A program made the translations under genes and the position numbers. A stretch of DNA of 35,554 nucleotides from a virus, in IMG/VR virus record IMGVR_UViG_3300005613_000214, positions 1-35,554 of that record; one strand, written 5' to 3'. Under the pieces are notes generated by a model, which worked only from the letters and a program-made list of their open reading frames with translations, made no database searches and had not been told where the DNA came from. Below, in pieces: positions 6,608 to 35,116 of the stretch; positions within the stretch are counted from its first letter, which is position 1; the number at the start of each line of letters is the position of its first letter.

Positions 6608-6625
6608 TGTTTATTACCTCTTGGA

Positions 6626-7007: not shown

Positions 7008-7012
7008 AATTT

Positions 7013-13000: not shown

Positions 13001-14704
13001 AAATGTATTTGCAAGTCCAACTGTTCCATAAACTGATTTTACATCAGATAAACTATATGATGTTATTGCTGTTGCAACTCTTCCATTTTCTATTCCATTT
13101 ATAACCAAAGACTCATTCTTTATGAAATTCCCAGATTTTTCATATAAAACAATAGATTTTGAATCTATTACATTGTCTTTTAAAAATGCTGTAGCACCCG
13201 TTTTTGAACCTCTAATAAATGTAGGAGTAGAAAGAGTTACATTTTCATTTAAAGTGATCTCTGTAATGGTTTGAACATCAAAAAGAGATATTGCCCACTC
13301 ATTCAAGTTTGGATTATCAGATTCATATGAACCAGACTCCAATCTAAAATCATATACTCTAGCAACTCCAATTTCTTTTCCTGGAGAATCAACCCGAGAA
13401 TCGCCAACTCTTTCGTCTCTCAAACTTAAAACATATGTATTGCCAATTCCAGTTAAGGGAGTTCCATATGTTCTATTTGTTAACAAATTATATCCAGTAC
13501 TATAATTTAATGCTTGATTTGATATTGTTTTTGTAGTTCTTGGTTTAGGAACATCCAAATAATTTGTCCCCGGAAGTTCAACCTCAAATCCTTTAACATA
13601 AGCTTTTCCCGGAGATATCTGATATAATGCCAAATCATCAGATGGTGTTGATCCTCCATATGTAAGTCTATCCGAAGAAAAAATACCGCCGTTCCCCAAT
13701 CCATCATCGAGAGAATTTTTTACTGATACATTTATTGGATTTACATAATAATCTCCAGATTCATCATATGTTCTTCTCGCCAACTCATTAGCAAAAAGAT
13801 TATATTCAGTATTTGTTACCGAAATAGTATTAATTTCTCCATTGATAATCCTTGCAATTTCTACAAATTCTGCATCTTGGGTATTATCTAAAGAAATTTT
13901 ATCCAATCTTACTGTAATTTTAAGTCTATCGGCTCCAGGTGCAGCATAATTATTGAATCCGTTAGAATTATCATTTAAATTTTCATCTAAATCCGAATTA
14001 ATTATTTCCTCCTTTACTCTAAATCCAACTTTATATGACGGATAAGAGTTATACTGATCTAATAAAATTGTTTCTGAATTTACTTGTATAAATCTTCCAC
14101 GAATAAAATAAACTCCATCATTTATATTAAATGTTGACCCATATGTTGCAGAATCACTTTCAATTGTTGAAGCAAAAGGTTCGCCAGAAGAAATAATAGT
14201 TGTTCCAAGATTTTCTGTTGTAATATCCTCAGAACATGTCAATAATTCTCCATCAGAAAAAACTTTCTGTGAAGTTTGTGAGTTTGAATTTAAATATGTT
14301 ATATAAAGTGTTAAAATACTTCTCTCAGAGTTTGTTGAAGAAAGGACAGAATCAACTCTCGCAGAAACTCCGGAAGTAAGTCCCGTAATAGTTTTATCGA
14401 TCAAAAAATATGCATATAACTCTACAGATACTCCAAGATAAGTATTTTGTAGTTGTATTGCATCTTTCTTTTGAGTATAATTAACATTTCCGGGTATAAC
14501 TTTAGAACCCTCTTTAAAAAAGTGTTGTCCAAAAGTTTCAACTTGATTTTGTAATATTGACTGTAAAGTTGTTAATTCTCTTGCCTGAACAGGATATCCT
14601 GGTTTAAAAAGAACTTGATAATAACCTTTGTCTTTTGCTCCAATTTCTGGTGCATTAAAATCATCAAAATATGGAGCAACATTTAAATTTGTAACCTGTG
14701 ACAT
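7013..14704 (-). CDS. Giant virion/baseplate structural protein with DUF4815-type N-terminus (2563 aa)
   Basis: Residues 1-60 (LNVAPYFDDFN..., PGYPVQARELTTLQSILQ, GQHFFKEGSKVIPGN) are the DUF4815-type start of large cyanophage structural proteins. Near residue 1138 is RIQNLEYYTALSLLE; about 1400 is RSRNIQIVGRSFKPNTRLYG with FFDGVDINKYIVPK. Residues about 1680-1740 are an Ala/Gln/Glu-rich coiled coil, ending in seven prolines at about 1743. This leads into DPLSQSFFVTEQSGVFITS, which begins a beta domain (NTEYAIC-like core: GGTEYAICMLSNSAKYRCF). Residues about 2000-2110 have GxGY repeats and about 2185-2225 a VLIGDEVISY...NVSG module shared with gp15 and gp7. It lies between gp8 and gp13, where T4 has genes 9-12 and wac, so it may combine baseplate-periphery and fibre roles (inference). 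Confidence 0.88.
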   Translation of the reverse strand: MSQVTNLNVAPYFDDFNAPEIGAKDKGYYQVLFKPGYPVQARELTTLQSILQNQVETFGQHFFKEGSKVIPGNVNYTQKKDAIQLQNTYLGVSVELYAYFLIDKTITGLTSGVSARVDSVLSSTNSERSILTLYITYLNSNSQTSQKVFSDGELLTCSEDITTENLGTTIISSGEPFASTIESDSATYGSTFNINDGVYFIRGRFIQVNSETILLDQYNSYPSYKVGFRVKEEIINSDLDENLNDNSNGFNNYAAPGADRLKITVRLDKISLDNTQDAEFVEIARIINGEINTISVTNTEYNLFANELARRTYDESGDYYVNPINVSVKNSLDDGLGNGGIFSSDRLTYGGSTPSDDLALYQISPGKAYVKGFEVELPGTNYLDVPKPRTTKTISNQALNYSTGYNLLTNRTYGTPLTGIGNTYVLSLRDERVGDSRVDSPGKEIGVARVYDFRLESGSYESDNPNLNEWAISLFDVQTITEITLNENVTLSTPTFIRGSKTGATAFLKDNVIDSKSIVLYEKSGNFIKNESLVINGIENGRVATAITSYSLSDVKSVYGTVGLANTFSSDVVLSSTINVGFATISGSSGGISTVISTNPSFPGNLVKINDVISFNNPEFSNPVFSKVVGVDDISITISGVSTVSGINEGSLPSSLLTVNDLKILKTKPVSVDDSSLYTKLPRKNISSVNLENSYLTIRKVYSGLTITSNRISTITAGENETFLPFDEERYTLVRSDGTFEILTSDKFNFSNGSTELILYNLGLDDLNATLYATLRKTSIKSKIKLKNRVNSIIVDKSIYSSSGVGGTTLNDGLIYGNYPYGTRVQDEVISLNSPDVIEIHGIFESSSSSDNPTASKLTLTNLTGESNTTSDLTIGERITGATSGAIAIVAERVSTTEITFILKTSSSFIEGESVLFEESGISGIVTRIDNLSNDISYNYTFSNGQNQSFYGYGSIRRKPSSISPSKKIKIYFSNGYYQSSDDGDITTANSYRNFNYSKDIQKIQKTRVTDIVDIRPRVNDYSVLESFRSPLEFYGRIFDQSGNSSTNILASDEQIGISYSFYLGRIDKIYLTRDGSLQVKYGNPTEGFETPTSVSDALEIGTITLPPYLYNTSDATISLLEHKRYRMIDINKLENRIQNLEYYTALSLLESNAANLFIPDADGFNRFKSGFFVDNFTQRKTQESKIASPKNSVDTKFQELRPTHYTTSIDLISGNSTDDLSSSSLDGENVVKNEGIITLNYLETEFLKQEYATRTESVTPYILAFWEARLELFPESDTWVDTVRIDPRIVQQEGNYTTLATVFDIDPQTGLSPINWGSWEDVWVGTNTIQTQQERSFVSIDDQLSDVDVRIEGNDLVQENTFFTETTTVQDNFEEVITTTEQARVGQRVLVTERFDTFSQGDRSVSREAILFMRSRNIQIVGRSFKPNTRLYGFFDGVDINKYIVPKLLEISMISGVFQVGEDVIGTMNTVGLSESPTEDLPRIAFRVAQSNHRLGPFNQPTHIFPENPYTRQALQEIYSSTSSILNIDTFSLANSVQSSYGGWVAPEMVLVGQTSGARAVITAVRFVSDLTSFFIGNFYLPDPNIIGNLRFETGTKTFTMLDNPINDSSSATTIGQDTFTSSGILETIQETIVSVRNANVTRIQEIENRTNVTTTGTQLVSTDVIDVERTERVESLIQEGVVVTPQELAAARQAAAAEVAQLETELTAAIGEGAQNLQQQLQAAQQQLNRLNARVFPPPPPPPRRDPLSQSFFVTEQSGVFITSCDIFFSQVDDENIPLVFQIRSMKIGLPTEKVLPFSEIIVEPSEIAVSGDASVPTNIKFKAPVYLEGGTEYAICMLSNSAKYRCFISRVGENDLITQAFVANQPTLGSLFKSQNGSTWEPSQWEDLKFTLYRADFVSKGSVNFYNPSFTDKNNQVAKLLPNSLNMNSKSIRVGLGSTLQDSELTLGMTILQDGSDGTGNYVGSAGSAYGNLNIINSGIGYTPSSGSFTYDNVPLQNITANGNSATANITIQDGVAIAATIQNGGSGYQIGDVLGITSIGTLNVGQNARISISSISSINELILDNVQGDFVVGVANTLNYVLNDAGVTTTLNYSFGGNVQIQNINIINSGLDIIVNHKNHGMYFNDNYVTLSNVLPDTIPTKLTSTYNTDSTGSISVEDSTSFTTFENVGVGTTNPGYVLIGDEVISYTSVTSGTIGGIITRNVSGYSKDYPAGTPIRKYELNGISLRRINKTHYLGDVTTNEPISFDSYTLRVDTGNSYGVGRTSGDSYPSLHFNTTKSSGGFGCRASQNIPYEIVTPNVQYTAVKGTSLGASIKTITGQSISGDEIPYQESELTEVSLNETNYLDSTRIVCSNINEEINISPLQLPKNKSFNLNLSLNTVDSRVSPVIDTQRVSAIFTSNRINNAISDYIEDERVSRIDSDPTAFQYITKEVRLKNPANSIKIYLAAHVNPYSDIRAFYSISNDEGFSPIFTPFPGFNNLDVRGNVIDQNNNDGLPDVYVSPTNKVGFKPYDIQYKDYEFTADNIGEFRSFRIKLVGTSTNQVFPPRMRDLRVIAIA

Positions 14705-14710
14705 AGTTTT

Positions 14711-16267
14711 TTAGAATTGCAATATTACTTTAATGTCTTCCTTTTGATTCGTTGATCTTGTTATGGAAGGGCGATTATCAACATAAATGATTTCACCGGA
14801 ATATTTTTTAACCTCTGGATTTGATATTCCATTAGTAAATGATTGTCCAAGGTAGTAAGTTCTATTATTTATCACGGTAGATATACCCGTAAATGATGTA
14901 TCTATTCCCAAAGAAGTTGTTCCTTGAACGATATCTAAATTTCCAGTTCCTGTTGGAGAACTAGTAAATTTATTCAAATTATATCCATAAATTGGATTTG
15001 TTATTCCAATCCCAGCTCCAGGAGATGTTGTAAATCCTGCAAGAGTTCTATCTTGCCAATATTTTAGTACTCCGGTTATTGGATCGTAATTAACTACTCT
15101 TCCTGCAGCAGTAACTCCAGTTCCAATTTCTTGAGTAATTATTGCATCTGGAGTAAACTCTGTTGTACTTGATGCTGCTCCAATAAGTTTTAATGCATAG
15201 ACAGCACTTGCTTTATCAATACTTAAATTTTGTATCGAATCATATGCTTTAGGATTTCTTATAATTCCAATCCTTGCAATCTGATTTCCAATTATAAAAT
15301 CTGGATTTTCTACATCATTTTCAATTCTTGAATAAAGAAGTACATTTTTTGCACCCAATTCTTTGTAAATATCTGCACCATGTCCACCTTGAGGAGAAAT
15401 GATAACATTGAATAAAGGATTTGTCGATCCTTGAGGAATGTTTGATGCATTTAAATCAATATTTCCATAAGTATAACCAGATCCTTGACTCGATATAATT
15501 ACAGAGTCTACCTCTTGATCCGCATTAATAGTAACAGTACATTCTGCTCCATCACCATCACCTTTAATAGGAACTCTCGTATAAGTTCTATTTGCTGTTC
15601 CTACACCAACTCCTCTATTAGTGACGGTAACTATTTTTATAGATCCATCAACAGCATTGTCTCTTACTGCAGCATTTTCATCAGAAGTTTCCCAATTAGA
15701 AGGAACTGGCATAAAATCTACAGATTCAAACTTAGAAATCTCTGATGGTTTAATAGTATACAAATATTTCCAAATATATCCATCACCACTTGTTCCTGCT
15801 GCTTTTGGTTCCAAATCCACAAAAGTTGGTTCATCTAATGAAGGTAAACCTGTAGGATTTTCTGGAGTAGTTCCATTTTGTAAACAAATATAAACTCTAT
15901 AATCACTATTAATTACAAAATAATTTGCAGAATATAAAGTCGTTGCCCCAGATCTTGCAGGATTTCTAATGCTGTAGTCGTGTCGATACATATCATACGT
16001 TGTTCCGGAATTCCAAAAACGCTTTGGAACAACTAATCTTATATCACTACTATTAATCTTTTTTAATGCAATTGCAGTATCCCAGTAATTATTTTCTTCG
16101 TCTAAATTATCGAGAGGGCTTGGTGGATTCTCATCCCAATCAGATTGATAATCCGAAGGATTTGGAAGTCCAATAAAAGAATAATAAGAATTTGAAGTAG
16201 TCGCTACACCAGCAACAAAATTCTTAGCATTCAATATTCTAATTTGATCAGTAATTATTGCAGCCAT
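14711..16267 (-). CDS. 8: Baseplate wedge gp8
   Basis: 518 aa against 334 aa in T4. Core matches to T4 gp8 as I remember it are the start, where a strand is followed by NSYYSFIGLPNPSDY; then IRLVVPKRFWNSGTTYDMYR; DYRVYICLQNG; GDGYIWKYLYTIKPSEISKF with the MPVPSNWE segment; and a C-terminus YSGEIIYVDNRPSI...QKEDIKVILQF, which parallels the gp8 ending. Extra length in the middle (residues about 225-300 and 355-470) includes one GxGY-type strand pair (VIISSQGSGYTYG) and loops rich in Gly, Thr and Ser. gp8 is a dimer in the baseplate wedge that contacts gp7, gp10 and gp6. It lies just after the gp7-like gene, as in T4, and has a clear TATAAATA 17 nt before its ATG. Confidence 0.93.
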   Translation of the reverse strand: MAAIITDQIRILNAKNFVAGVATTSNSYYSFIGLPNPSDYQSDWDENPPSPLDNLDEENNYWDTAIALKKINSSDIRLVVPKRFWNSGTTYDMYRHDYSIRNPARSGATTLYSANYFVINSDYRVYICLQNGTTPENPTGLPSLDEPTFVDLEPKAAGTSGDGYIWKYLYTIKPSEISKFESVDFMPVPSNWETSDENAAVRDNAVDGSIKIVTVTNRGVGVGTANRTYTRVPIKGDGDGAECTVTINADQEVDSVIISSQGSGYTYGNIDLNASNIPQGSTNPLFNVIISPQGGHGADIYKELGAKNVLLYSRIENDVENPDFIIGNQIARIGIIRNPKAYDSIQNLSIDKASAVYALKLIGAASSTTEFTPDAIITQEIGTGVTAAGRVVNYDPITGVLKYWQDRTLAGFTTSPGAGIGITNPIYGYNLNKFTSSPTGTGNLDIVQGTTSLGIDTSFTGISTVINNRTYYLGQSFTNGISNPEVKKYSGEIIYVDNRPSITRSTNQKEDIKVILQF

Positions 16268-16284: not shown

Positions 16285-16292
16285 TATTTATA
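16285..16292 (-). promoter_or_regulatory. Late promoter TATAAATA before gp8
   Basis: An exact T4 late-promoter octamer TATAAATA on the minus strand, 17 nt before the gp8 ATG and covering the stop end of the gp7-like gene. No Shine-Dalgarno sequence stands before gp8, so a short leader of about 11 nt would follow if transcription starts 6 nt downstream of the box. The best match of the four such motifs noted in the structural region. Confidence 0.55.
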
Positions 16293-19200
16293 GGATGTAG
16301 TCTTGATATCTGAGTGGAATTTTTCTGTTCACAATAGATCCGGTTAAAATGCCAGTTATACCATTATTTAAATATGTATTATATTCTTTTTTATCGTCAA
16401 CTTCTAATCTTGAAGAAAGTGATAATTTCCCCCAACTATATCTACCATAAAAACTACTAGTTCCTATACCAGTTAGTGAGTTATAATCGGAAATACTTAC
16501 AGTTACCCTGGCAACATAAGTAATTCCAAATCCAACAACATCTGTTTGTCCAACTGAAACAGAAGAAACCTTATAAACATTATCTAAAAATTGCGTTCCA
16601 ATACCTAAAACGGAATTGTCACTTTCCAAAGAAGTTACACCACTACCGATATTGGAATCGTATACAATAAAATAATAACCGGTTTGTATCCCGCTTAAAG
16701 TAGTAACTCCAACTACAGAAGAATCTCTTAAGAAAGAATCTTTTTCAATTGTTAAATCTAATATTAACCCGGTAGAAGCAATACCGACTGAAGTTGTTGC
16801 GATGCCAGTAATTATACCAAAATCTCCTTCATATGATTGAATTTTATTCGATTCCTTATTTGTTAATGGAGATTCAATTAGAACTACTGGTGAATTTGAA
16901 GTGGTATAACCAAGTCCAGAATTTATAATATCAATAGAAACGATACTTCCACCAGAAATAGTTGCAGAAGCTTCTGCAGTTACTGTAGCACCTACACCAA
17001 TACCAGCAATACTAACCGTAGGTGTTGTAGTATATCCAACTCCACCATTGGATAAAACTATGGAAGAAATTGTTCCTGCAACACTTACAATAGCAGTAGC
17101 AGAAGCTGCAACTTTAGAGTCCTGAGAGATTAAAACAATATCTCTTTGGAAAGCAAAAGGATCTGAACCACCAGCATTAGTTTCATTTGTCGGATTAAAG
17201 AAAGGCCTTACGTTATCAACAAAAATTATTGTTTCACCAATACCAACGGATTTAATTAAATATGCTGATGGATTGATATTTGCTTCGTACAATTCTCTAC
17301 TCTTTCCTACTATTTTAGAATCAACAAATACATCCTCAGTTTGTCTACACCAAGTTACTGGCCTTAATAAATCTGGATTATCAATATTGCCTGGGCCATA
17401 ATATGGATTGGTAGATACAACATCTACACTGTCTATTCTAGTTACAAGTCTAGGATCTTCTTGCAAAGTTTCACTTTGTCCGAGAGTTGGTGAATGATTA
17501 ATTGTTAAAGTATCTCCAACTTTTACAGTATCAAGAACTTCTCTCTCGATTACATCAATATCGCCAGATCCTCTATAGAAAATAACTTTGGAAGTATCAC
17601 CCTCTTTAGGAGCTTCTGTAAATGTTAAGATGTTGCCACCATTAAATCTATAAGATTCTCCCGGAACTTGTAATATATCATTAATGAAAATTAATAATGT
17701 ATGCTCAACATTTACATTTGAACCCGGTGATGCAAGAATAGAAACATTTTCTCCTGCTAATTTTAAAGAAAATGTTCTTCTATTTCCATTGAAAAATTCA
17801 TCAAAATCATCAAGGATTTGTAAATCTCCAATAGTCCAACCAGAGAATTTATCATTAATAGTTCTTTCAATTGTCAACTCAAATGGAGCATAATCTGAAG
17901 TTGTAGGAATTCCAGAAACTCCACCAATTGGTAAAGTAAGTATTTGTCCTTGTCCGTAGGCATATCCAGTCGATTGAATTTCAAAATCAATTACACTCGA
18001 TCCTTGTCCTACAACAACATTAATAGATGCTGATGTTCCTATACCCGGAGAAGAATTATCAGAATAAATTAATGGAATATTTGAATATGACAATGGATCA
18101 TCAAAAATAACATATGGTGGATTTGACGAAGAATATCCAGATCCAGGATTAGTTATTGATACACTAACAATGTTTCCATTGCTTACAGTTGCAGTTCCAA
18201 TAAAGTGAATATTTGGTATTCCTGTCGTTGATGTTGCAACTCCAACATTAACTGCTTGTATTTCTCTATAACCAGATCCACTATTACCAATACTAATAGA
18301 TTGAATAGTTCCTGAAATTGAAACAACTGCAGTTCCTCCAGCGGATACAAGTGGTTGATAACCAAATCCTGCACTCGAACCAACAGAAACTATCATTCCA
18401 CCTCTTGGAAAAGAAGATATGCCAACATCAGAACCTAAAGTTCTTGCAGAACCTACAAATTCAATATCAGTTTTTCCTCCAGATTCTGTTAAAACATAAG
18501 TATCTTCAAATCCTACATTTTGGAATATTTCATTTATTAATACAATTGCATTACTTGTAGTAATTCCAGTTATATCTGAGCCAGAAGATGTCAATGTAAA
18601 TATACTTGATATTCCGGTAAATGAATCAGATATATCATCAAAAATATAATTTTTGTAATAAGGATCATTTGTTCCATTTATATCTCCAGATCGCATAAAC
18701 ATTCTTCCATGGAATTTCGAACTGGTAGAAATTCCAACCCAATCTCTTGAATCTGGTGGATTCGATGTTGTTGATAGTGGAATATTTCCATATGGAGCAC
18801 TCACAAAGTTTAGTTTATTTCCAACAATATTATAATTTCCAGTAACTTTTGTAACCAAAGAACCTGTAGAGTATCCAGCATTGGTAGTTCCCATCCAAGA
18901 TCTTCTTACTCGGATTGCATTGGTACTTCCTATTCCAACACCATCAATTCTTACAATTTCATCTCCAATTTTAACGAGATCGCCACCAAAGAAAGAAGTT
19001 ATTCCAGTAAAGAAAAGTGTATCATCAAAAAATCTTGCTTCCCTCGCTAGTGATGTTGTTTGTGAAGTCGAAACGATAGGAGATTGAATATTATTGTCAA
19101 TGGCAATTACAACTTTACTATTTTGATTTTTTGCAGTGAGAGTATGTGATGTTCCAATTCCAACATGTGTTATATCTAAAACTTCTGGTATTATTTTAAG

Positions 19201-22200
19201 CGCATTTTCTGCACTTGAAGAAAGCTTCAATGTTTTGTCATCAATTTTTACTGCATAAACAGTTGATGGAAGTTTATCTGTAGTTCCAATACCAGGAATT
19301 GTGGTTGTTGCAATTCCAATTGCCATTGTTGAACCATATCCAGCATGTGTATATGAAAGTTCTTCGCCAGTAACAAAGAAATGATTAGCAATTGTTATCT
19401 CATTTCTATTAATGTTTACAAAATTAGAATCATCTCCCAAGAAATTTCTTACAAAAACTGGATAATTTTGATGAGTTAAATCAAATTCTCTCTTAATATC
19501 ACTATTTGTTCCAAAATATTCGGAGAAATCAGTTTCAATTATTGCATTATTCAAATCAATCTGTTCATTTATATTTTCATCATCGTATTGGAATGCATTC
19601 ATATAAACCTTAACTTCAACATCAATATTTGGTAGTGGAGTGAATGTAAGATTTGTGTCAATTGGATGAGTATGATATGAACCGATAGTGCCCAATCCAG
19701 AATTAGTTTCTAAATTTCCAAATTCAGTTTGATACGTTAAAGATTCTGCATCATTTTCAAGAAGTAAAACTTCCGAAACTTGATGTCTATTATTAGTAAT
19801 ATCGGAAACTTGAACTATAAAATATGCGGCATCGTATGATTCATCAAATGTAGCAATATTATGTGCTATTGGAGATGTTGATGATGCAATAGAAGTTGAA
19901 CTTCCTTCAATGCGAACATACTTCATCTGATATGTTCCAATTCCCGTAGAAGAAGTATCTCCAATTGATATATTAATAAGATTAACTGTAGCAGCTATTC
20001 CAGGATTTGGAGAAAAGTCAAGATTTATATTAGATCCGGAAATATATGCATTATATGTACCCAATCCCGAACTAACATATGAACTCGAACTGTTATCAAG
20101 ACTAGAAAACTCTAGAAGAGAAACATCTACATTATTGTGGATCAAACTAATTTCATCATACTGGAACCTTCCATCAGGAGTTCCCATTTCAACCAAAATC
20201 TTAGAAGAAATATAAGTACTAGCAATTCCTACCAATGTCGTTGTGGTTCCTGTAGAAACAAGAATACTTGATGATGCAATACTAACAGGCCCAAAATGTG
20301 AACTTCCAACAGAAGTTAAAGTATCCTTCAAACTATATGAAATTGATGTTGTATCATAGTTATTAATTTCATATTTGTTTGGATAAAAGGAAAGAAGAAT
20401 CTCTGTACCATCAAAAGAAACATCATAATCTCCCAAATTAGTTGGGCCATAAATTCCATATTGATTTAAATATGTGTTATTATTATTATCAATTAAAAAT
20501 GATGCAATAGTTAACTGTCTTTCGTCAACATAAAATGCATCTCTTGTAAAAATAATATATTTTTGAGTTCTTATATTTGAGGCTGGAGATCTGTGTACTA
20601 CAGAATATCTTGTTGGCCTTGGATTACTATTAAATTGATCACTAATATCATCAAAAAGTAACACTCTATTTCCAAAAGACTCAAAATAATCAGTTAAAAT
20701 TGCACTATTAAAAATTATTTTATCAGATACTAAATTAGAATTTATATTAAGAGCATTTTCTGATACTAAATCAAAATTGTAAATACAATTTACATCAATA
20801 ACACCAATCAAATCAATTTTGAGATCTAAATCAGTTAAATCTGTGGTAATTCCAACAACCATTGAAGTTGGATTAGATGCTTTAGATTCTAATTGAAAAT
20901 CAGAAAACTTCTTAAATCCTGCAGTATGGTTTAAGTTGCTTACAATATCATTCCAACTGTCAAAATCTACATTTGATTTTAAAGAATATGAGAAGTTTTG
21001 ATAGTAAAAACTATCTTGTAATCTTTGTTTATTGTCATTTAAAACTCCTGCATCATATGCCCATCCTCCAATAACTCTGGAAAAAGAATCTAATTTATAT
21101 GTTGAATTGTTTATGTTAAATGGAGATGATTTTGTAATTAGTGCTTGAGAATCTGAAGATCTACCTAACAAAATCTTTCCTACTTCAAAATCATCAACAG
21201 TTTCAACTATTGATTTTTCTGTTATTGGATTAAACTTAAATAGCTTTCCTGAAGAAACACGATCTAAAGTTTCTACTTGCTCTCCCTCATAAAAAATATT
21301 CTTTGTGAGTATTGATTTAAAGGTTGGAAAATATTTTTCCGGTATTACTCTTCCCGCAGATTCTAAGGAATCAAAAGTGCCAGGACTTTCACCTTCTAAC
21401 AAAGATTCTGACAGATTATAAGTAATTGTAGCTGTTAATCCACCATAATCTGGACTTATACCAGTAAGTGTAAATAGTTCATAGTTATAGTTTTCGGAAT
21501 TATATCCTCTATATTCGGAATCAGTTTCTGAAATACTGATATTTTCTATTAAAATTTTATCATTTACTGCGAATGGAAATCCACCAACCGTTGTAAATCC
21601 AACAGATAAACTTACAGTAACATCTTTAGTTACAGAATCATAAGAAATGGATGAAATTCCTACACCGTTACAATTTTTGACTGGTATAATAGTCGGTTCT
21701 AGTTCAAATAAACCTTTGGTATTTTTTAAAATATCAACAGTATCATCTTCAATATTATAACGAAGATCGACATCTGTTATTTGTTCTCCAGTTTTTCCAT
21801 CTATGACTACTAATTCTGGCGCAACAACATATCCTATACCAGTAGAAGTGACACCAATCGATTCAAATGAGGATAATGGTTGCAAATCTAAAACTTCTGC
21901 GATTTTAACACTAGGCCTTAAGGTAAAATCTGTTGGATAATCAAAACCAATATTTTCTATTTTTATCTTTTTAATTAATCCAATAGAAGAACTCTCTGGA
22001 TTCAAAATTGCACCACTTCCTTCTAAAGTTCTTATTGAAGAAACTCCTGGAATAATATCAAATCCATATCCACTATTTAAAATATCTATTTTTTCTATAG
22101 ATCCTTTTGCACTTAATGAATTAGTACTATAAGATATAATTGCATTTTCAGAAGTATAACTGTCTTTTTCTGGATAATCTTCAATATTATATGTAAAAGT

Positions 22201-25200
22201 ATTATTTGATGCAATTAAAATTTTATATTCTCCATTATAATTACTATTTTTCACAAAAATAGTATTATTTTCGTAAATATTTTCATCAATTACTATTTCT
22301 TTCTTTTCATCTGGAATAGAAGAAATATTTACTGGAGATAATTTGTAATAAAGTACATTTGGGGTATTATCATTTATAATAACTTCCAACTTTGCATCTG
22401 TAGTAACTCCAATAATCCCTGTTTTTTGAACAATAAGATTTTTATCTTCAATGTTATTGTAAATATTTGTAAAATTTTTATCAACAAATAAATTTATATC
22501 AAAAGATGGTATACTAGATCCCAAAGAAATATGAGATAATGAGTGATCAGTTAGATCAAAAACTAGTTTTGAATTTCTATGTATACTAATTGGTGGATTT
22601 ATTAAAGATAATTTTCCATCAGAAGAACTTGTTATATTAACGACTAAAGGCCTGTCACTTAAAGAATCATAAAAACTATTTGTTAACTTAATTCTATCAT
22701 TGTCAACAACATAAACATAATAAATTTTGTTGGTTTCTAACCCACCTGAAGGTAAATTTGAAGTATAAAGTACAACTTGTCCAGATTCTAGTCCATGTTG
22801 TGAAATATAAATTTCATTTAAATTTATATCTACATCAGAAGATGTAAATTCTCTTTCTCCAATTAATACTCTTCTACTATAATCATTATATTTTACTGAG
22901 AAAGTTTTTGCTATAGAAGGATTTACATTGATATCTATTGAATTATAGTTTAACAATCCATGAGTTTCTGCAGTAGAAACCGTGACTAAATTTTTATCAA
23001 TTCTGCCAGATAAAATTTCTGGAAAGTTTGTTTTGAAGCTATGATAAACTCCTGTTCCAAATCCAGAAAGATATAATGTACTCTGATTCCTTGTTGTTGA
23101 AGATACCCCAACGATTGTGCCTGTTGATCCAATTCCAACCTTTACTGTCGAAATTCCAATTAAATTCTTATCAATAGCATGAATGTAAACTATCGAATTA
23201 TTTGGAAGACTTGATGTAGTTATTCCATCATTGGAAATGATAATAGAATCTCCACCATTAGAATTGTAAGTTACAGAATCTCCCGTCTTTAATTTGTGAT
23301 CTGGAATATAAATGCTCTTTGTAGGAATAAAAATTTGAGTTATACCTGCACCCGGATTTGAAAATACTAATGTTGATCCAATTCCAACACCAAAAGAAGA
23401 TCCTATTCCAAGAGATTCGCTTGGATTAAAATACAATTCTCTATTTAATAGATTTGAAAAATATGTACTATATCCAGCATTTATAGAAAATTTTCTAGGA
23501 TTTTCTAAAAGTAAAGTACCTGCAGTATGTGATGTTCCGACTGTTCCATCATATTCTCTTAAAACTCTAATTCTTGATGACTTTTCGTCAACATTTAATA
23601 CTTTTATTTTTTCATTTTCTATGGATAAAATATCATTTTCTCTTATACTTAAGAAATCTAGAGGGCCAGTAACTGGGATATAAGTAATAATTCCTGTAGT
23701 TGTTGCAGAAGAAATTCCAACAGAAGTTGTTCCCAATCCAGTAATTGAAAATCTATTTGTCGTAATACCTATTTTGTAAAATCCTTCTAAAAATGAAGAT
23801 GTAGTATTTAACCCGGATATTTTAACGGTATCAAAATCGTTTAAAGAATGTGGAAAAGAAGAAAATCCTATAATTCTTCCATTACCACCAAGAGGATAAA
23901 ATTGAATATCAATAATGCTTGTAGATGAAACACTTACAGAGCTTACAGATTTTCCAGTAATTCTAGATACTCTTCCAGAAAACCCTCTACCACTACTAGT
24001 ATCATCTAAAATAATATCATCATTTACTTTATAATTTGTTCCGCCAGTTTCAATTCCAATATTCTCTATCACACCAATTTGTGTAGTAACTACTTTTGAT
24101 GTTTGTTCTTTTAATTTATTTGGAAATAATACATAATCATAATAACTATTTCTCTTTGTGAAATTGTACGGATAAGTATTTCTAAGCCACTTTCCATCGT
24201 TTAAATTAAACTGATCCTGATTTGAGCCAGGATTAAAGTTAAATGAATTTGGTTTTGATTGATAATTTTTTCCAATTAGATATGGAAAAATTGGCAGTCT
24301 TCTCTTGACAAAAATTCCATCACTTTCTATTTCATCATCAAATGTTGCAAAGTATGCATAAGTCCCATTTGGAAAATCTGGTGTTTTACAAAATCTTCCA
24401 TTATTTTCATCTAAGAATGCATTATCGTTTGATGGTACATAAATATAGTCTTCAATAAAAAAACCGTCAGGAAATTCTGGAGGCCTGCCAGAATCTGGAG
24501 AAAGAACATAACTAGATTTCATTCTTGCGATAGATCCACCAGTTTTGGAAGAATATCCATAAGGGCCGTAAATTGGATTTCCATCATATGCCCAACCAAT
24601 AATTGGTGAATGATATTCTGAAGATATTTCATTTCCAGCAGAATCTACTTTAAGATCTGGTTCTTGATATAGACTGTTACCCAAAGAATCTATAGAATAT
24701 GACGTTCTCCTTAATCCTCTTGGTGCATATATGTGACAGTATTCTAATCCATAATTATTATTAATTCCATCGACAATAATACCATCGTCATCATTTAAAA
24801 TATTTAAATATCTTTGAAATAAATTTATATTCCAAGATTTTATATTTGTTATAAACTTTGAACCAGATCCAGAAGAAGTTGCACTTATTCTCGTAGAATA
24901 TTGATTATATCCTGCACCTGGACTTACAATTTTCACTGAAGTTACTCTGCCGTTTGTTAAAATGGATGTTAACTTTGCTCCATCTCCATCACCAGTCACA
25001 ACCAATTCTGGAGGTGATGTATATGAATATCCACCATTATCAATTAAAACTTCAGAAATTCTTCCACCAACAATGATTGGTGTGAAAGATGCTCCAAATC
25101 CACTGTCAACTTCAATTAAAGGTTCTTTCTTGTAGTTTATAATTGAAGAACCATATCCCGTTCCATTATTTGAAAGATGAACAGATGTTATTTCTCCTCT

Positions 25201-28200
25201 AAAAATTGGTTGAACTTTGCACTTAAAGTCATCATCAGAAACAGAAGCAATTCCAATATTACCAATAACTTGTATTGAAATTTCTGGATAATTGAATAAA
25301 TGCGTTCCAATTCCAGAACTTGTGATGTTTACATATTGTTTTGTTCTATAAAAGAATTCTGGATCGCTAGTTGTCAATCCAACATTTGATACATGAAAAC
25401 CATTTTCATCTACTGATGTCACATAATATTGTGATGTGGTTGATAGTCCAGAAGCAGCAGTTCCATCAACATTGTAGGTTATAATTTCCCCAGATTTGTA
25501 ACCATGATCTTTAATTTCAATCAAATTTAGTGCAGTATTGATTCCAGCAGAAGGACATGTTCTAAGTTTATTCTCATATCCTTCCCCAGAATTTGTAACT
25601 ACAATAGAACTTATAACTTTTTTCTTATTTACTGATTCAAAAGTGTGATTTCCAGTTCCATAGTCCAATAAGAAAATGGTATTGATTCCAGAAACTGAGT
25701 CACTATATGTTTTGTGTAACTTAATCGTTGAAGTGTTTTGAACTGAAACATAATAATTAGAATCTGTAGATAAACCAGAAATTCCTCTCTCCGAAGAAGT
25801 TTTATAAATTACCTGCTCATTATTTCTAAATTTGTGATAAGTAGTAAATCCAATTGTATTGTTTGTAATATCTACCAGAGCAGATCTCTCTTCACTATTA
25901 AAAGATACTTCATGGACAGTATCAGTCAATACTGCTTCGGCAATCGCATTAGAACCATTTCCGCCGATAATTCTAACAACAGGAGTATCAACATAATCAA
26001 ATCCAGAATCAATAATTTTTATTTCTTTTAGATTTCCTTTTACCGATACATATCCAGTAGCACCAGTTCCAATCGAATCTTTAATTAATAATTGTGGAGT
26101 ATTGACTATATCGTAATCTTCACCACCGGCAATAACATCGATATTTTCAATATTTCCATAGTAAATAAAATCTCTAGATTTATAATTTAAAATTTCTACG
26201 CCATTAATCAAGATACCAGTTTGTCCAGGTAAAGTTGGATATATTTTTCCGTCATTTACGGGAGGTGATATCTCTCTTAAAATCTTTTGATTTGCAAGAG
26301 TTTTGTCTTTAAATCTAAGTAATTCTATTTTATTATCAGAGACTTCTTTGTCTGAACTTAATTCTACAAAGATACCATTAAAAATATTAGATCTACTTCT
26401 AGCTAATTTTATATTATTAGAATCTACTCTAAAAACATAATAAATTCCCTCATCAAATAAGGAACTGACAACAGTATCTTGATTTATTTTTTGTGGAGTA
26501 TAGTAAACTTCATCTCCAGTATAAAATCCATGATCAGTTGTTGATGTTATTCTTATAGTGTCTCCTTCTGGAAATTCACCACTCAGAGTATATGAAAGAA
26601 TTCTTGTATTGATTGGTTTTGAATTTTGACTGGAATCACTATAAACAGGAATAGAACTAGAAGATACTAAAGTTTTTTCTTTCAGATTATATACATTTTG
26701 AACATTAGCATCAATATTATTAATATTATATAATGAGGAAGAAGCTTTTAGTCTTTTTCTTTTGAAGGTAAAATTAGCATTTAGATTTAAATTTATGTCG
26801 CCTTCGCAATCAAATACTTTTTCATTTAAAATATTTGTAATTTTAAAGTTATCAAAAACAGATCCATCAGATCCTTGAATTTCTATTTTATCTCCAATTC
26901 TGACTAAATGTGGATCGAATAAAGTAACTCTATAATTTTTTGGTAATCTAAACTCTATGTTTTCAATTTCTTGAGATGATGATGTATTGAAATACCAATT
27001 ATTAGATTTTTTATCTTTTGATTCAACGCCTAAAGTTTTTATTCTGATCTTTTCTCCCGGTAAGTGATATAGTGGTTCTTCTTCTACATTTAATGAATTT
27101 AAAACTGATCTTATTTTAACTCTTACTTGATTTGAAGTATCTACACCAACATATGCATATGCAAAAGTATTTACGTCAATTGGAGTATTATCTGGTATGA
27201 CAAAAGAAACTCCAGAACATCCAATAAACTGCGTAAGTGTTTTTGAAGTGTAAGAAATTACGCCAGATTGTTCATTTGGATATGTTACTGATAATTCACC
27301 ACTGTTAGGAAACCCTAAAGTTGAATCAACATCAATGTAAGTTTGTCCTATTGAAACGTTTCCAATTATTTTCGTTTTTGAATGTATAGAAAATGTTCCA
27401 TAAACTGCACCATTAACTATGATATCTCTATCATATCCAGAGTCTAAACTTACTCTGTAGTAACTTATGGAACTAATTCCTGCATTTACTTTTTCAACCT
27501 TAGTTACAGGAGCATATGCTTTATTAATATCACCATATTGATCTTGGAATAAAGTTAAATTTTCTAAATCCAAAGGATTGCCAGAAACACTCTCTACAAC
27601 TAAATCGTTTGTGATTCTGTATCCAGCATCTGAAGGCCTGAAAAGAAAATCTCTTGGTTTTATAATTTCAACATCAGATCCATATAAAGATCTAAAAAGA
27701 ATTTTAAAAGACTGATCTGTTCCCTTTGTCGAATAAAAATCTTTTGACTGCTTAATGAATATATTTTGATTCAACTCAGATTGATCTGGATTTGGATCTC
27801 CCGGAAATCTTTCTATTGATTTAATTGCAAAATCTCTATTTTCAAATCCAGGAAGGAAAAGTTTTTTTGTTTTCTTTAGGAATTCATTTAAAAAAGAAAT
27901 ACTCAAATTTTCAATAGTATCTCCAGAAGAATGTTCTTGCGCTTCTGTAGATTCAAATACTAAATTTTCTGGATTTGTATTATTTTGATAAGAAGAAACA
28001 CCAGAAAATCCTCTGATGCATCCAATAAATGAAAAACGATTTTTACTAGTATATGTAATTATTTCATCATTTATTTTTAAAAGTCCATAAGAATCTGGAA
28101 ATCCATCTGTTGTTGCAGAAGGATTGATGGTTATAGTTGTATCATCAAATGATATATTAGAATTTAATCTGACAGATTTATTTAAACCAGTTGTCTCATT

Positions 28201-28371
28201 TAATTTTATATACTTATCAATATTTTGAATTAAATCGGTGGGAGCTCCTTGATATTCCTGAGAAATGTAATACTGCGATAAAAATTCTGCAACAAGAGGA
28301 AACTCCTCTCTTACATAAGCAGGAAGTTGATTTTTGACAATCTGATTAAATGAAACTCTCTTTTCTGTCAT
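16288..28371 (-). CDS. 7: Giant gp7-like baseplate wedge protein (4027 aa)
   Basis: Position between gp6 and gp8 and motif content point to gp7 (T4: 1032 aa). Residues 17-55 (PAYVREEFPLVAEFLSQYY) and 210-236 (KDFYSTKGTDQSFKILFRSL, YGSDVEI) match the conserved DFYSTKG region of T4 gp7. Beyond that it is modular. Four E-I-x-x-Y/I...R-G-type modules lie near 97-125, 360-385, 1570-1625 and 3128-3170. About seven HG/HxL...G-x-x-V-x-Y...YYV repeats lie near 604, 840, 953, 1500, 1690, 1853 and 2993. GxGY repeats are scattered, densest at 1030-1180, 3330-3460 and 3740-3830. Residues about 1210-1345 carry a YHYH-like domain. No membrane segment or signal peptide. Likely adsorption-apparatus scaffold with surface modules; large relatives are called VrlC in some cyanophages. 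Confidence 0.88.
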   Translation of the reverse strand: MTEKRVSFNQIVKNQLPAYVREEFPLVAEFLSQYYISQEYQGAPTDLIQNIDKYIKLNETTGLNKSVRLNSNISFDDTTITINPSATTDGFPDSYGLLKINDEIITYTSKNRFSFIGCIRGFSGVSSYQNNTNPENLVFESTEAQEHSSGDTIENLSISFLNEFLKKTKKLFLPGFENRDFAIKSIERFPGDPNPDQSELNQNIFIKQSKDFYSTKGTDQSFKILFRSLYGSDVEIIKPRDFLFRPSDAGYRITNDLVVESVSGNPLDLENLTLFQDQYGDINKAYAPVTKVEKVNAGISSISYYRVSLDSGYDRDIIVNGAVYGTFSIHSKTKIIGNVSIGQTYIDVDSTLGFPNSGELSVTYPNEQSGVISYTSKTLTQFIGCSGVSFVIPDNTPIDVNTFAYAYVGVDTSNQVRVKIRSVLNSLNVEEEPLYHLPGEKIRIKTLGVESKDKKSNNWYFNTSSSQEIENIEFRLPKNYRVTLFDPHLVRIGDKIEIQGSDGSVFDNFKITNILNEKVFDCEGDINLNLNANFTFKRKRLKASSSLYNINNIDANVQNVYNLKEKTLVSSSSIPVYSDSSQNSKPINTRILSYTLSGEFPEGDTIRITSTTDHGFYTGDEVYYTPQKINQDTVVSSLFDEGIYYVFRVDSNNIKLARSRSNIFNGIFVELSSDKEVSDNKIELLRFKDKTLANQKILREISPPVNDGKIYPTLPGQTGILINGVEILNYKSRDFIYYGNIENIDVIAGGEDYDIVNTPQLLIKDSIGTGATGYVSVKGNLKEIKIIDSGFDYVDTPVVRIIGGNGSNAIAEAVLTDTVHEVSFNSEERSALVDITNNTIGFTTYHKFRNNEQVIYKTSSERGISGLSTDSNYYVSVQNTSTIKLHKTYSDSVSGINTIFLLDYGTGNHTFESVNKKKVISSIVVTNSGEGYENKLRTCPSAGINTALNLIEIKDHGYKSGEIITYNVDGTAASGLSTTSQYYVTSVDENGFHVSNVGLTTSDPEFFYRTKQYVNITSSGIGTHLFNYPEISIQVIGNIGIASVSDDDFKCKVQPIFRGEITSVHLSNNGTGYGSSIINYKKEPLIEVDSGFGASFTPIIVGGRISEVLIDNGGYSYTSPPELVVTGDGDGAKLTSILTNGRVTSVKIVSPGAGYNQYSTRISATSSGSGSKFITNIKSWNINLFQRYLNILNDDDGIIVDGINNNYGLEYCHIYAPRGLRRTSYSIDSLGNSLYQEPDLKVDSAGNEISSEYHSPIIGWAYDGNPIYGPYGYSSKTGGSIARMKSSYVLSPDSGRPPEFPDGFFIEDYIYVPSNDNAFLDENNGRFCKTPDFPNGTYAYFATFDDEIESDGIFVKRRLPIFPYLIGKNYQSKPNSFNFNPGSNQDQFNLNDGKWLRNTYPYNFTKRNSYYDYVLFPNKLKEQTSKVVTTQIGVIENIGIETGGTNYKVNDDIILDDTSSGRGFSGRVSRITGKSVSSVSVSSTSIIDIQFYPLGGNGRIIGFSSFPHSLNDFDTVKISGLNTTSSFLEGFYKIGITTNRFSITGLGTTSVGISSATTTGIITYIPVTGPLDFLSIRENDILSIENEKIKVLNVDEKSSRIRVLREYDGTVGTSHTAGTLLLENPRKFSINAGYSTYFSNLLNRELYFNPSESLGIGSSFGVGIGSTLVFSNPGAGITQIFIPTKSIYIPDHKLKTGDSVTYNSNGGDSIIISNDGITTSSLPNNSIVYIHAIDKNLIGISTVKVGIGSTGTIVGVSSTTRNQSTLYLSGFGTGVYHSFKTNFPEILSGRIDKNLVTVSTAETHGLLNYNSIDINVNPSIAKTFSVKYNDYSRRVLIGEREFTSSDVDINLNEIYISQHGLESGQVVLYTSNLPSGGLETNKIYYVYVVDNDRIKLTNSFYDSLSDRPLVVNITSSSDGKLSLINPPISIHRNSKLVFDLTDHSLSHISLGSSIPSFDINLFVDKNFTNIYNNIEDKNLIVQKTGIIGVTTDAKLEVIINDNTPNVLYYKLSPVNISSIPDEKKEIVIDENIYENNTIFVKNSNYNGEYKILIASNNTFTYNIEDYPEKDSYTSENAIISYSTNSLSAKGSIEKIDILNSGYGFDIIPGVSSIRTLEGSGAILNPESSSIGLIKKIKIENIGFDYPTDFTLRPSVKIAEVLDLQPLSSFESIGVTSTGIGYVVAPELVVIDGKTGEQITDVDLRYNIEDDTVDILKNTKGLFELEPTIIPVKNCNGVGISSISYDSVTKDVTVSLSVGFTTVGGFPFAVNDKILIENISISETDSEYRGYNSENYNYELFTLTGISPDYGGLTATITYNLSESLLEGESPGTFDSLESAGRVIPEKYFPTFKSILTKNIFYEGEQVETLDRVSSGKLFKFNPITEKSIVETVDDFEVGKILLGRSSDSQALITKSSPFNINNSTYKLDSFSRVIGGWAYDAGVLNDNKQRLQDSFYYQNFSYSLKSNVDFDSWNDIVSNLNHTAGFKKFSDFQLESKASNPTSMVVGITTDLTDLDLKIDLIGVIDVNCIYNFDLVSENALNINSNLVSDKIIFNSAILTDYFESFGNRVLLFDDISDQFNSNPRPTRYSVVHRSPASNIRTQKYIIFTRDAFYVDERQLTIASFLIDNNNNTYLNQYGIYGPTNLGDYDVSFDGTEILLSFYPNKYEINNYDTTSISYSLKDTLTSVGSSHFGPVSIASSSILVSTGTTTTLVGIASTYISSKILVEMGTPDGRFQYDEISLIHNNVDVSLLEFSSLDNSSSSYVSSGLGTYNAYISGSNINLDFSPNPGIAATVNLINISIGDTSSTGIGTYQMKYVRIEGSSTSIASSTSPIAHNIATFDESYDAAYFIVQVSDITNNRHQVSEVLLLENDAESLTYQTEFGNLETNSGLGTIGSYHTHPIDTNLTFTPLPNIDVEVKVYMNAFQYDDENINEQIDLNNAIIETDFSEYFGTNSDIKREFDLTHQNYPVFVRNFLGDDSNFVNINRNEITIANHFFVTGEELSYTHAGYGSTMAIGIATTTIPGIGTTDKLPSTVYAVKIDDKTLKLSSSAENALKIIPEVLDITHVGIGTSHTLTAKNQNSKVVIAIDNNIQSPIVSTSQTTSLAREARFFDDTLFFTGITSFFGGDLVKIGDEIVRIDGVGIGSTNAIRVRRSWMGTTNAGYSTGSLVTKVTGNYNIVGNKLNFVSAPYGNIPLSTTSNPPDSRDWVGISTSSKFHGRMFMRSGDINGTNDPYYKNYIFDDISDSFTGISSIFTLTSSGSDITGITTSNAIVLINEIFQNVGFEDTYVLTESGGKTDIEFVGSARTLGSDVGISSFPRGGMIVSVGSSAGFGYQPLVSAGGTAVVSISGTIQSISIGNSGSGYREIQAVNVGVATSTTGIPNIHFIGTATVSNGNIVSVSITNPGSGYSSSNPPYVIFDDPLSYSNIPLIYSDNSSPGIGTSASINVVVGQGSSVIDFEIQSTGYAYGQGQILTLPIGGVSGIPTTSDYAPFELTIERTINDKFSGWTIGDLQILDDFDEFFNGNRRTFSLKLAGENVSILASPGSNVNVEHTLLIFINDILQVPGESYRFNGGNILTFTEAPKEGDTSKVIFYRGSGDIDVIEREVLDTVKVGDTLTINHSPTLGQSETLQEDPRLVTRIDSVDVVSTNPYYGPGNIDNPDLLRPVTWCRQTEDVFVDSKIVGKSRELYEANINPSAYLIKSVGIGETIIFVDNVRPFFNPTNETNAGGSDPFAFQRDIVLISQDSKVAASATAIVSVAGTISSIVLSNGGVGYTTTPTVSIAGIGVGATVTAEASATISGGSIVSIDIINSGLGYTTSNSPVVLIESPLTNKESNKIQSYEGDFGIITGIATTSVGIASTGLILDLTIEKDSFLRDSSVVGVTTLSGIQTGYYFIVYDSNIGSGVTSLESDNSVLGIGTQFLDNVYKVSSVSVGQTDVVGFGITYVARVTVSISDYNSLTGIGTSSFYGRYSWGKLSLSSRLEVDDKKEYNTYLNNGITGILTGSIVNRKIPLRYQDYIL

Positions 28372-30295: not shown

Positions 30296-30697
30296 TTACC
30301 TAGTTGGTTGTAATACAAATTCTAATTGTTGTGCAGGAACATCAGCTCCTATAATTTGATATATAATTTTTACATCAAAAGTATTATTATCGTAATCTGG
30401 AAAAGATTCCACATCAATTAAATCAACTCTTGGTTCATAGTTTTCAATTGATTGTCGAATTTCATCAGTAATAATAGATGCAGAAATATCATCTACATTT
30501 TCAAATAAAGTTCTAGAAATTCTAGATCCAAAATTTTCATCAAAAAACTTTTCGCCAGGAAGAGTGAAAACAATATTTCTGATAGAACGAGCAATCGCAT
30601 TTTCATTCTTAAGGGCAATCAAATCATTACTCAGAGGATTTCTCTGAAATGTCATACTAATATCTTTAAATCCTTGACTTACCCTTTCTAAAGGCAT
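30296..30697 (-). CDS. 25: Baseplate wedge gp25 (lysozyme-like fold family)
   Basis: 133 aa; T4 gp25 is 132 aa. Start MPLERVSQGFKDISMTFQRN, then NENAIARSIRNIVFTLPGEK, FFDENFGSRISRTLFENVDD and the diagnostic ENYEPRVDL (E-P-R motif) followed by IDVESFPDYD. This family also includes the baseplate proteins of type VI secretion (TssE). gp25 stabilises the wedge and sheath start with gp6 and gp53. It is the first T4 core gene of the structural operon and precedes gp6 without a gap. A late-promoter-like motif lies 20 nt before the start codon. Confidence 0.95.
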   Translation of the reverse strand: MPLERVSQGFKDISMTFQRNPLSNDLIALKNENAIARSIRNIVFTLPGEKFFDENFGSRISRTLFENVDDISASIITDEIRQSIENYEPRVDLIDVESFPDYDNNTFDVKIIYQIIGADVPAQQLEFVLQPTR

Positions 30698-34031: not shown

Positions 34032-34060
34032 CTTACTGATTAGAACTCTTATATTACTAC

Positions 34061-34136
34061 CTGTGGAAAAAAAGTTTTCCACAGTGTATCTCCCCTCTTG
34101 GAGTTCGTGTTACCTGTGGAATAAAAGTTTTCCACA
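34061..34136. promoter_or_regulatory. DnaA-box-like cluster 1 (three exact TTTTCCACA sites) in two hairpins
   Basis: Exact TTTTCCACA at 34062-34070 (minus), 34075-34083 (plus) and 34128-34136 (plus), and one single-mismatch site at 34115-34123 (minus). The first two form a perfect 10-bp stem CTGTGGAAAA / TTTTCCACAG with a 4-nt loop; the last two form a 7-bp stem. No T-run follows on either strand, so these are not ordinary terminators. TTTTCCACA is the common cyanobacterial form of the DnaA box. Confidence 0.6.
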
Positions 34137-34142
34137 AGTTAT

Positions 34143-34316
34143 CTACCATCTCACAGGATTTGACAGATCTTCAATGTATGCTTCACACCTCTCATTACCT
34201 TGCAATTCGAATAACTCTTCCCACTTAATTTGATGAGGATTAAAGTCATCCAAAGCATCAATCTCTAAAGTGATACGATACTTACTCTTCTGTGCTGAAT
34301 GATAGATAGCAGGCAT
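34143..34316 (-). CDS. Small cyanophage protein, 57 aa
   Basis: Start chosen at ATG 34316 because GAGGATC stands before it and a promoter ends at 34345; a longer frame from a TTG at 34373 would begin inside the -35 box. The product reads MPAIYHSAQKSKYRITLEID, then ALDDFNPHQIKWEELFELQG and NERCEAYIEDLSNPVRW. The L-E-I-D-x-L-D-D-F-N-P-x-Q-I-x-W-E pattern is familiar from small cyanophage proteins. Likely one beta-alpha-beta unit; function unknown. It sits between the two DnaA-box clusters. Confidence 0.8.
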   Translation of the reverse strand: MPAIYHSAQKSKYRITLEIDALDDFNPHQIKWEELFELQGNERCEAYIEDLSNPVRW

Positions 34317-34344
34317 AGATCCTCGAAGAATGGTGAATGTTAAT

Positions 34345-34373
34345 AGTATAGGACTGCGGAGGCAATCTGTCAA
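34345..34373 (-). promoter_or_regulatory. Strong sigma70-like promoter TTGACA-N17-TATACT
   Basis: Perfect -35 TTGACA (34373-34368), 17-nt spacer and -10 TATACT (34350-34345, five of six consensus) on the minus strand. Start near 34338, 22 nt before the 57-aa ATG with its ribosome site. Divergent to the plus-strand promoter at 34446-34474. Confidence 0.82.
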
Positions 34374-34445
34374 TCTGTTGTGGGTATTTATTCGGAAGTC
34401 TTATCATTTTTTTGCAAATGTCAGGAAATACTTATCGGCGGGTTC

Positions 34446-34474
34446 TTGACATTTCGGGGAAGTGCTGATAGACT
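34446..34474 (+). promoter_or_regulatory. Plus-strand promoter TTGACA-N17-TAGACT
   Basis: TTGACA (34446-34451), 17-nt spacer, TAGACT (34469-34474); expected start near 34481. The boxes are identical to those of the minus-strand promoter at 33178-33206, including the preceding TTC. It is the only plus-strand promoter noticed, and it faces a block without a credible large gene. Confidence 0.72.
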
Positions 34475-34484
34475 GCGGGCTTAG

Positions 34485-34540
34485 ATCACTACTCTATGAG
34501 ACATTTAGAGAGTATCAATCACTACTCTATGAGACATTTA
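34485..34540 (+). repeat. Two 23-bp direct repeats at a 33-bp period
   Basis: Identical 23-bp copies at 34485-34507 and 34518-34540, beginning ATCACTACTC and ending GAGACATTTA. A partial third copy (ACATTTAGAGAG) lies at 34568-34579. The 33-bp period is close to three helical turns. The unit is related to the 40-bp leader repeats by a shared CACTACT...GAGACA(C)TTTAGAG core. Confidence 0.85.
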
Positions 34541-34624
34541 TCAGGACATAAGTATCAGGTATCAGGTACATTTAGAGAGGCATAAAGTAACTGCAAAGGT
34601 ACTACGAAGACACTGTAGATACAC

Positions 34625-34662
34625 TCCACAGTAACTCTAACTGTGGAAAACATTGTGGAAAA
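34625..34662. promoter_or_regulatory. DnaA-box-like cluster 2 (two exact TTTTCCACA sites)
   Basis: Exact sites on the minus strand at 34642-34650 and 34654-34662, 12 bp apart. The first also forms an 8-bp inverted repeat with TCCACAGT at 34625-34632. It adjoins a strongly AT-rich stretch at 34663-34720. Confidence 0.6.
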
Positions 34663-34720
34663 CAAAAAGGATAAAATGATTTAAAAAAGCTTTTTTAATT
34701 GTTTTTTGATTAAAAGCATA
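34663..34720. other. AT-rich stretch with an 18-bp perfect palindrome
   Basis: About 58 bp with very few G or C, including the palindrome TTAAAAAAGCTTTTTTAA (34681-34698). Placed directly beside DnaA-box cluster 2 and before the terminator. The layout suits a DNA-unwinding element. Confidence 0.55.
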
Positions 34721-34756: not shown

Positions 34757-35116
34757 TCATGCAAGAAGAAGTTCATTAGAGAGAGAACCTAATCGCATTG
34801 AATTACGGAACTCAGTGATAAAGAACTCAGTACCATTGTAGAGACGAATGAACCATTTGTAGTTCTTTTGGAATACACTTTCTCCTGCAATTCCGTGTTC
34901 AGAAAGAATAGCATTAAGGCGAGACTTTGTTGTATTTGATTGATAACCACCATCATAGAGTTTGATGAAGTTATCACCTACCTCTGCAATTTTGTTACCG
35001 TGAAGATAAACAATAGAGAGGTTAGTTTCAGGATCAAAAGTAACAGCAGTATTTGCAGATTGCCAATTCTTGTTGTTAGAAATGGCATTATTCATTTGAG
35101 TTTCGATCTTTCGCAT
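34757..35116 (-). CDS. Conserved cyanophage protein, 119 aa
   Basis: MRKIETQMNNAISNNKNWQS, then VVYLHGNKIAEVGD-type centre (SIVYLHGNKIAEVGDNFIKL), YDGGYQSNTTKSRLNAIL and a tail VFQKNYKWFIRLYNGTEFFI. I recognise this chain (start through SNTTKSRLNAI) as a common small protein of cyanophages with no known function. Predicted as a mixed alpha/beta soluble protein. It is followed by a terminator and preceded by the second copy of the 40-bp leader repeat, so it may be expressed as a separate unit. Confidence 0.88.
   Translation of the reverse strand: MRKIETQMNNAISNNKNWQSANTAVTFDPETNLSIVYLHGNKIAEVGDNFIKLYDGGYQSNTTKSRLNAILSEHGIAGESVFQKNYKWFIRLYNGTEFFITEFRNSMRLGSLSNELLLA

Follow-up and report, generated by a model that had tools for sequence, protein, structure and literature searches.

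An array of exact cyanobacterial-type DnaA boxes in a T4-like cyanomyovirus is, as we conclude from sequence comparison, a putative host-DnaA-binding site in a conserved, origin-like locus, and T4-like cyanophages may borrow the replication initiator of their hosts. The window (the whole stretch of viral DNA analysed, 35,554 nucleotides) is a 35.5-kb fragment of such a phage, with genes for the baseplate wedge proteins gp25 and gp6, a tail sheath stabiliser and a small terminase, and the box cluster is placed in a region of short ORFs upstream of gp25. Established here directly are the identity of the boxes, their clustering at quantised spacings, a conservation of order and position, and agreement with the box of host oriCs; initiation at the locus is a graded proposal.

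The box array and its surroundings

Six copies of TTTTCCACA, the established cyanobacterial DnaA box (PMC4674748), occur in the window, five of them within 601 bp (34062-34662). These five had been listed in an earlier sequence-only reading, every coordinate and strand of which proved correct. The sixth copy, also reported there, is at 23849-23857(-), inside the longer of two very long ORFs of the structural region (16288-28371, 4027 aa; 7013-14704, 2563 aa). The low number expected by chance is borne out by 100 dinucleotide shuffles, which averaged 0.85 copies per whole window and never exceeded 3; the probability of at least five in a given 601-bp stretch is approximately 5e-12.

The boxes form two groups. 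The left group consists of a pair of direct repeats, each 41 nt long and offset by 53 bp (34058-34098 and 34111-34151; 34058-34151 overall), and each contains an inverted box pair of the form TGTGGAAWA-N4-TTTTCCACA; its exact boxes are at 34062-34070(-), 34075-34083(+) and 34128-34136(+), and the predicted one-mismatch site is indeed present at 34115-34123(-) as TATTCCACA. The 13-bp inverted spacing of this group is the sole spacing seen for that orientation in cyanomyovirus loci. The right group comprises two direct boxes (34642-34650 and 34654-34662, both minus) that are 12 bp apart from start to start, the most frequent direct spacing among relatives. The left-hand palindromes (34061-34084 and 34114-34137) fold, but a reading as PeSL (promoter-early stem-loop of T4-like phages) was rejected, as no promoter is predicted close upstream and boxes occur as direct pairs too. 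A terminator reading was likewise dismissed for want of a U tract, and an Rfam search returned sub-threshold matches to hairpins only.

Read on the minus strand, the locus is divided from the upstream gene (34757-35116(-); PHROG 554, function not assigned) by a terminator-like hairpin with U/A tracts (34749-34723), which has a counterpart at the corresponding place in relatives. There follow an AT-rich candidate unwinding element (34735-34663) adjoining the right boxes (34662-34642), the conserved block GTGATCTAAGCCCGCAGTCTATCAGCACTTCCCCGAAATGTCAAG (34489-34445), a promoter-like TTGACA-17-TATACT for the downstream small gene (34373-34345), a 57-residue ORF of PHROG 12516 between the two box groups (34316-34143) and the left box group. 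The gp25-like baseplate wedge gene (30296-30697(-)), which serves as positional anchor, is 3.4-4.0 kb downstream of the boxes. Another promoter-like site, TTGACA-17-TAGACT (34446-34474(+)), is aimed at the AT element as in the layout of T4-type origins; both promoter-like sites are consensus matches only. The two had been described as divergent promoters flanked by boxes, and their positions hold, but the plus site is part of the conserved block and reads in the direction of the right boxes and AT-rich stretch. That stretch, remarked on earlier beside 34642-34662, does exist, reaching 88% AT over 40 bp, yet is unexceptional for the contig (P = 0.31-0.38). A 23-nt exact direct repeat, ATCACTACTCTATGAGACATTTA (34485-34540, spacing 33), overlaps the start of the block.

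Conservation of the locus in cyanophages

The count of exact sites covered 18 genomes of cyanophage isolates, most of them T4-like and none picked by motif, with T4 as control. A pair of TTTTCCACA within 60 bp is present in seven of the 18, against an expectation of 0.10 genomes and never more than three in 20,000 simulations; in the 194-kb genome of S-RIM32, all five copies are inside 1.07 kb. In T4, TTWTCCACA is found at five scattered sites that form no cluster, and none was seen there for TTATCCACA, the general bacterial DnaA box. Among viral contigs anchored on gp25, 18 of 20 TTTTCCACA copies are 2.8-4.6 kb upstream of that gene, with some loci being near duplicates. Eight whole genomes, a set partly selected for presence of the cluster (S-WAM2 is the exception), have the locus at 2.9-7.6 kb upstream of gp25. 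In an unbiased test of all 9-mers over 95 dereplicated loci, TTTTCCACA ranks fourth when words are ordered by how many loci contain a close pair, and those that outrank it are words of other repeats.

A non-coding locus of ~400 bp can be aligned between S-RIM32, Syn1, S-PM2, Sf-CH11, Sf-CH3, S-CAM1, S-CAM3, S-CREM1, S-RSM4 and S-WAM2, in the order box array, AT element (AAATGGTTTAAAAAACATAGGTAA), block (TTGTTGNCTTAGCACGC...CTATCGA..GTCAA), -10-like TATAAT and AT-rich hairpin. A first model, built from the box-free part of the locus, has matches directly adjacent to the box pairs in DSL-LC03 (E 4e-9), Syn30 (4e-5) and Syn9 (2e-4), all left out of its building, and matches the window weakly. A second model drew on five phages that belong to another branch (L070, L076, L357, L396 and S-SM2) and left the window out; in nhmmer it matches the window at a box-free stretch containing the block (34509-34408 minus, E 2.9e-24) and at a segment containing the AT-rich element (34762-34518 minus, E 2.7e-10). 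On these matches, the window is taken to contain a diverged version of a non-coding locus that T4-like cyanophages conserve upstream of gp25. An even spread of the 9-mer across the genome and absence of the cluster from relatives had been named beforehand as refutations; TTTTCCACA is unevenly spread, and the cluster is kept in relatives and so extends beyond this contig. In S-RIM32 (P=0.0018) and Syn1 (P=0.0035), the 100-bp stretch with the highest AT content genome-wide is ~200 bp from the array; the AT element is conserved by alignment, and local AT content is not significant in the window, Syn9, Syn30 and DSL-LC03. At the S-PM2 box array (19177-19333; L334 3678-3834), NC_006820 annotates tRNA-Asn and tRNA-Leu, though ARAGORN detects no tRNA in that interval.

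Box position was also examined in 109 dereplicated loci gathered from viral contigs by two words of the conserved block, with boxes ignored. The 350-bp bin upstream of the block holds 106 boxes and the next eleven bins upstream hold one, a positional contrast independent of how the collecting words were chosen. Further boxes are found downstream of the block, 24 at 0-350 and 16 at 700-1050, the latter in one branch. An exact box is present within 350 bp upstream of the block in 47 of the 109 loci, a fraction that is no population estimate because the words were derived from loci including box-bearing ones; the remaining 62 are without exact boxes, and at least one of these (L657) appears to be a chance match to a collecting word. 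The region is AT-rich and crowded with short ORFs, as might favour a chance or compositional artefact of hypervariable sequence. Such an origin of the cluster is scarcely credible given the window shuffles, the pairs in isolate genomes with their simulations and the enrichment of one-mismatch variants, and the block-anchored, box-blind count already refutes it.

Identity of the boxes

Several properties of the sites point to DnaA as the protein that reads them. Box-bearing loci contain 0.91 one-mismatch sites per locus, compared to ~0.1 in most neighbouring bins, with TTATCCACA (13) and TTCTCCACA (11) as the leading variants. Pair spacing is quantised, at 12 and 21 bp for direct pairs, 13 bp for inverted pairs of one orientation and 12-14 and 23-25 bp for the other. 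Exact TTTTCCACA is found 130-330 bp upstream of dnaN in 18 of 30 loci of the host family, and 52 of 61 host genomes have a gene for DnaA. Direct box pairs are absent from six Cyanobium/Synechococcus genomes; they are found at the oriC of some other family members, phased at 12 and 21-22 bp as in the phage loci. The phage locus hence shares with bacterial-type origins a cluster of host-consensus DnaA boxes and a phased spacing permitting cooperative DnaA assembly. Motif variants, quantised spacing, host oriC comparison and conserved position strongly support both the identity and the clustering, and the sites are very probably DnaA boxes. No enrichment of degenerate DnaA boxes was seen in box-less loci. 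In viral contigs at large (loci L091-L318), paired TTTTCCACA sites likewise fall at quantised distances (12 and 21 for direct pairs, 13 and 19 for inverted ones), and phased DnaA boxes may therefore be widespread in phages.

Loci with other repeats

The initiator cassette seems exchangeable, given that more than half of the loci are without exact boxes and some carry another repeat. Repeats of TTGAGAATCAAT or TTGATAATCAAT replace the boxes in S-RSM4, S-WAM2, L028 and L388, and L354 and L388 have their downstream part in common with different cassettes. Among the box-less loci, 14 of the 109 have this repeat module only and 48 have neither module nor boxes; in two of the latter that were inspected (L651 and L660), GATACTAATTCGTAT palindromes upstream of the block occupy the box place and are a possible third cassette. 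With 62 of 109 loci lacking exact boxes, DnaA is not needed for whatever function is common to all copies.

Repeats of the TTGAGAATCAATAA type, which sit in place of DnaA boxes in some phages, are found in L016 (512-540), L017 (7511-7540), L019 (3042-3070), the S-RSM4 and S-WAM2 locus and L388. They were rejected as a common host site, occurring as single copies in no more than 4 of 61 host genomes. L019 (2062-2281), L011 (6169-6354) and L017 (6975-7109) hold arrays of the palindrome TCTCGACGAGA, separated in L019-L021 by a few hundred bases from the DnaA-box cluster; the arrays are operator- or stoperator-like, and in some the palindrome is placed between -35 and -10 elements of promoter-like sites. 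A tentative reading, to which we give slightly less than even chances, is that T4-like cyanophages have one modular origin in which a swappable initiator cassette precedes a constant AT element and promoter block. On the same footing, the cassette could consist of host DnaA boxes in many lineages and of TTATTGAGAATCAATAA repeats or other palindromes elsewhere. If so, these phages would alternate between host and other initiators.

Published read-depth peaks

Rihtman et al. reported approximately two-fold read depth at 10,500-12,000 in S-PM2d and an excess of reads at 137,800-139,000 in S-RSM4, left both unexplained and observed no similarity between the two regions (PMC4893331). The shared locus is at 9,456-10,037 (plus) in S-PM2d and 140,250-140,109 (minus) in S-RSM4, and the peaks therefore begin ~0.6 kb and ~1.1 kb, respectively, downstream of the block in the orientation of the locus, and lie 0.6-2.3 kb downstream of it. 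For peaks placed at random, the chance that both genomes would show one no more than 1.5 kb to either side of the locus is roughly 6e-4, by our own estimate. A laboratory deletion in S-PM2 (5,799-15,339) leaves the locus intact (PMC4503421). S-RSM4 has a peak and no exact DnaA box; the peaks consequently speak for the locus rather than for DnaA, and the locus is broader than a DnaA module. Under an origin reading, the S-PM2 and S-RSM4 peaks would acquire a common sequence element.

A candidate replication origin and alternative functions

We consider it reasonably probable that the locus is an origin at which DnaA acts as initiator in the box-bearing phages. In the window copy, the initiator cassette would be the host DnaA-box array, where host DnaA would bind the phased boxes, oligomerise and help to open the adjoining AT-rich element. 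A sigma70-type transcript from the conserved block into this element may provide an R-loop primer, as at T4 origins, and a helicase, either host DnaB or the gp41/gp59 system of the phage, could then load for a first, theta-type round, after which recombination-dependent replication would take over. The sequence-only reading had proposed a host-initiator origin, of which DnaA-box identity and clustering stand; support for the origin part is indirect, from the AT element by the array, the promoter-like site and the nearby read-depth peaks. GC skew, suggested there as a check, gave no clear origin signal, nor did skew at 4-fold sites; gene direction dominates both, and a small step at the array is unconvincing. 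The replisome of cyanomyoviruses is T4-type (PMC2984593), and host DnaA is therefore not obviously needed.

Three other functions were considered. The locus may adjoin a packaging start or preferred end, with terminase starting beside it and doubled read depth reflecting terminal redundancy, in which case the DnaA boxes would have a different role or link replication with packaging; Puxty et al. interpret the S-PM2 peak in this way (PMC4503421), and narrow peaks (1.2-1.5 kb) of ~two-fold height fit a redundant end (PMC4893331). Coverage is nevertheless continuous and consistent with circular permutation according to Rihtman et al. (PMC4893331), and phased boxes, AT element and a promoter-like site reading into them are left unexplained; we regard packaging, with or without this added role for the boxes, as unlikely.

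Regulation of neighbouring small genes by DnaA or another host protein at the boxes would agree with the promoter-like sites within the locus and the -10-like sequences kept downstream of the block in relatives. It is a doubtful explanation, however, as the right boxes of the window are ~170-300 bp from the promoter-like sites and neither AT element, hairpins nor read-depth peaks are explained. Exact host-consensus boxes, several per genome, could also titrate DnaA as a sink or decoy, stopping host replication or altering DnaA-ATP in a datA-like manner. This appears improbable for boxes that are few, fixed in position and linked with a conserved block and AT element, since a sink has no need of a set place or of an exchangeable partner module.

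Should initiation at the locus be correct, T4-like phages would be able to start replication via a host initiator. No experimentally mapped replication origin was found for these abundant marine viruses, and a literature search, with many subscription papers outside its scope, found none that connects cyanophages and DnaA boxes in the way proposed here. The locus supplies exact testable sites in the cultured phages Syn1, S-PM2, Syn9 and S-RIM32.

Comparison with known origins

Origins of T4 combine a promoter with a downstream unwinding element that forms an R-loop, with no known requirement for DnaA. The phage locus resembles oriA, oriE, oriF and oriG in its promoter-like site reading into an AT-rich element, within phages that have a T4-type replisome (PMC2984593). 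It differs in its exact DnaA boxes, clustered in the window and present in 47 of 109 loci, compared to T4 without a cluster, and in this respect it does not fit a T4-type origin.

At P1 oriR, pSC101 and R6K, DnaA boxes adjoin an AT-rich segment, and a self-encoded initiator with iterons is also needed. The phage locus likewise pairs boxes with an AT-rich segment, though no self-encoded initiator was identified at it; by analogy, an iteron- or self-initiator-like part might fall to the TTGAGAATCAATAA module found in sister phages. With the cyanobacterial oriC, upstream of dnaN, the locus shares the 9-mer and, in some hosts, the direct-pair phasing of 12 and 21-22 bp (PMC4674748), and it departs from oriC in being viral, near baseplate genes and endowed with few boxes and a virus-specific conserved block. 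Syn9, for which Weigele et al. (2007), as cited in PMC2984593, predicted a single theta origin, carries the locus at 52565-52744.
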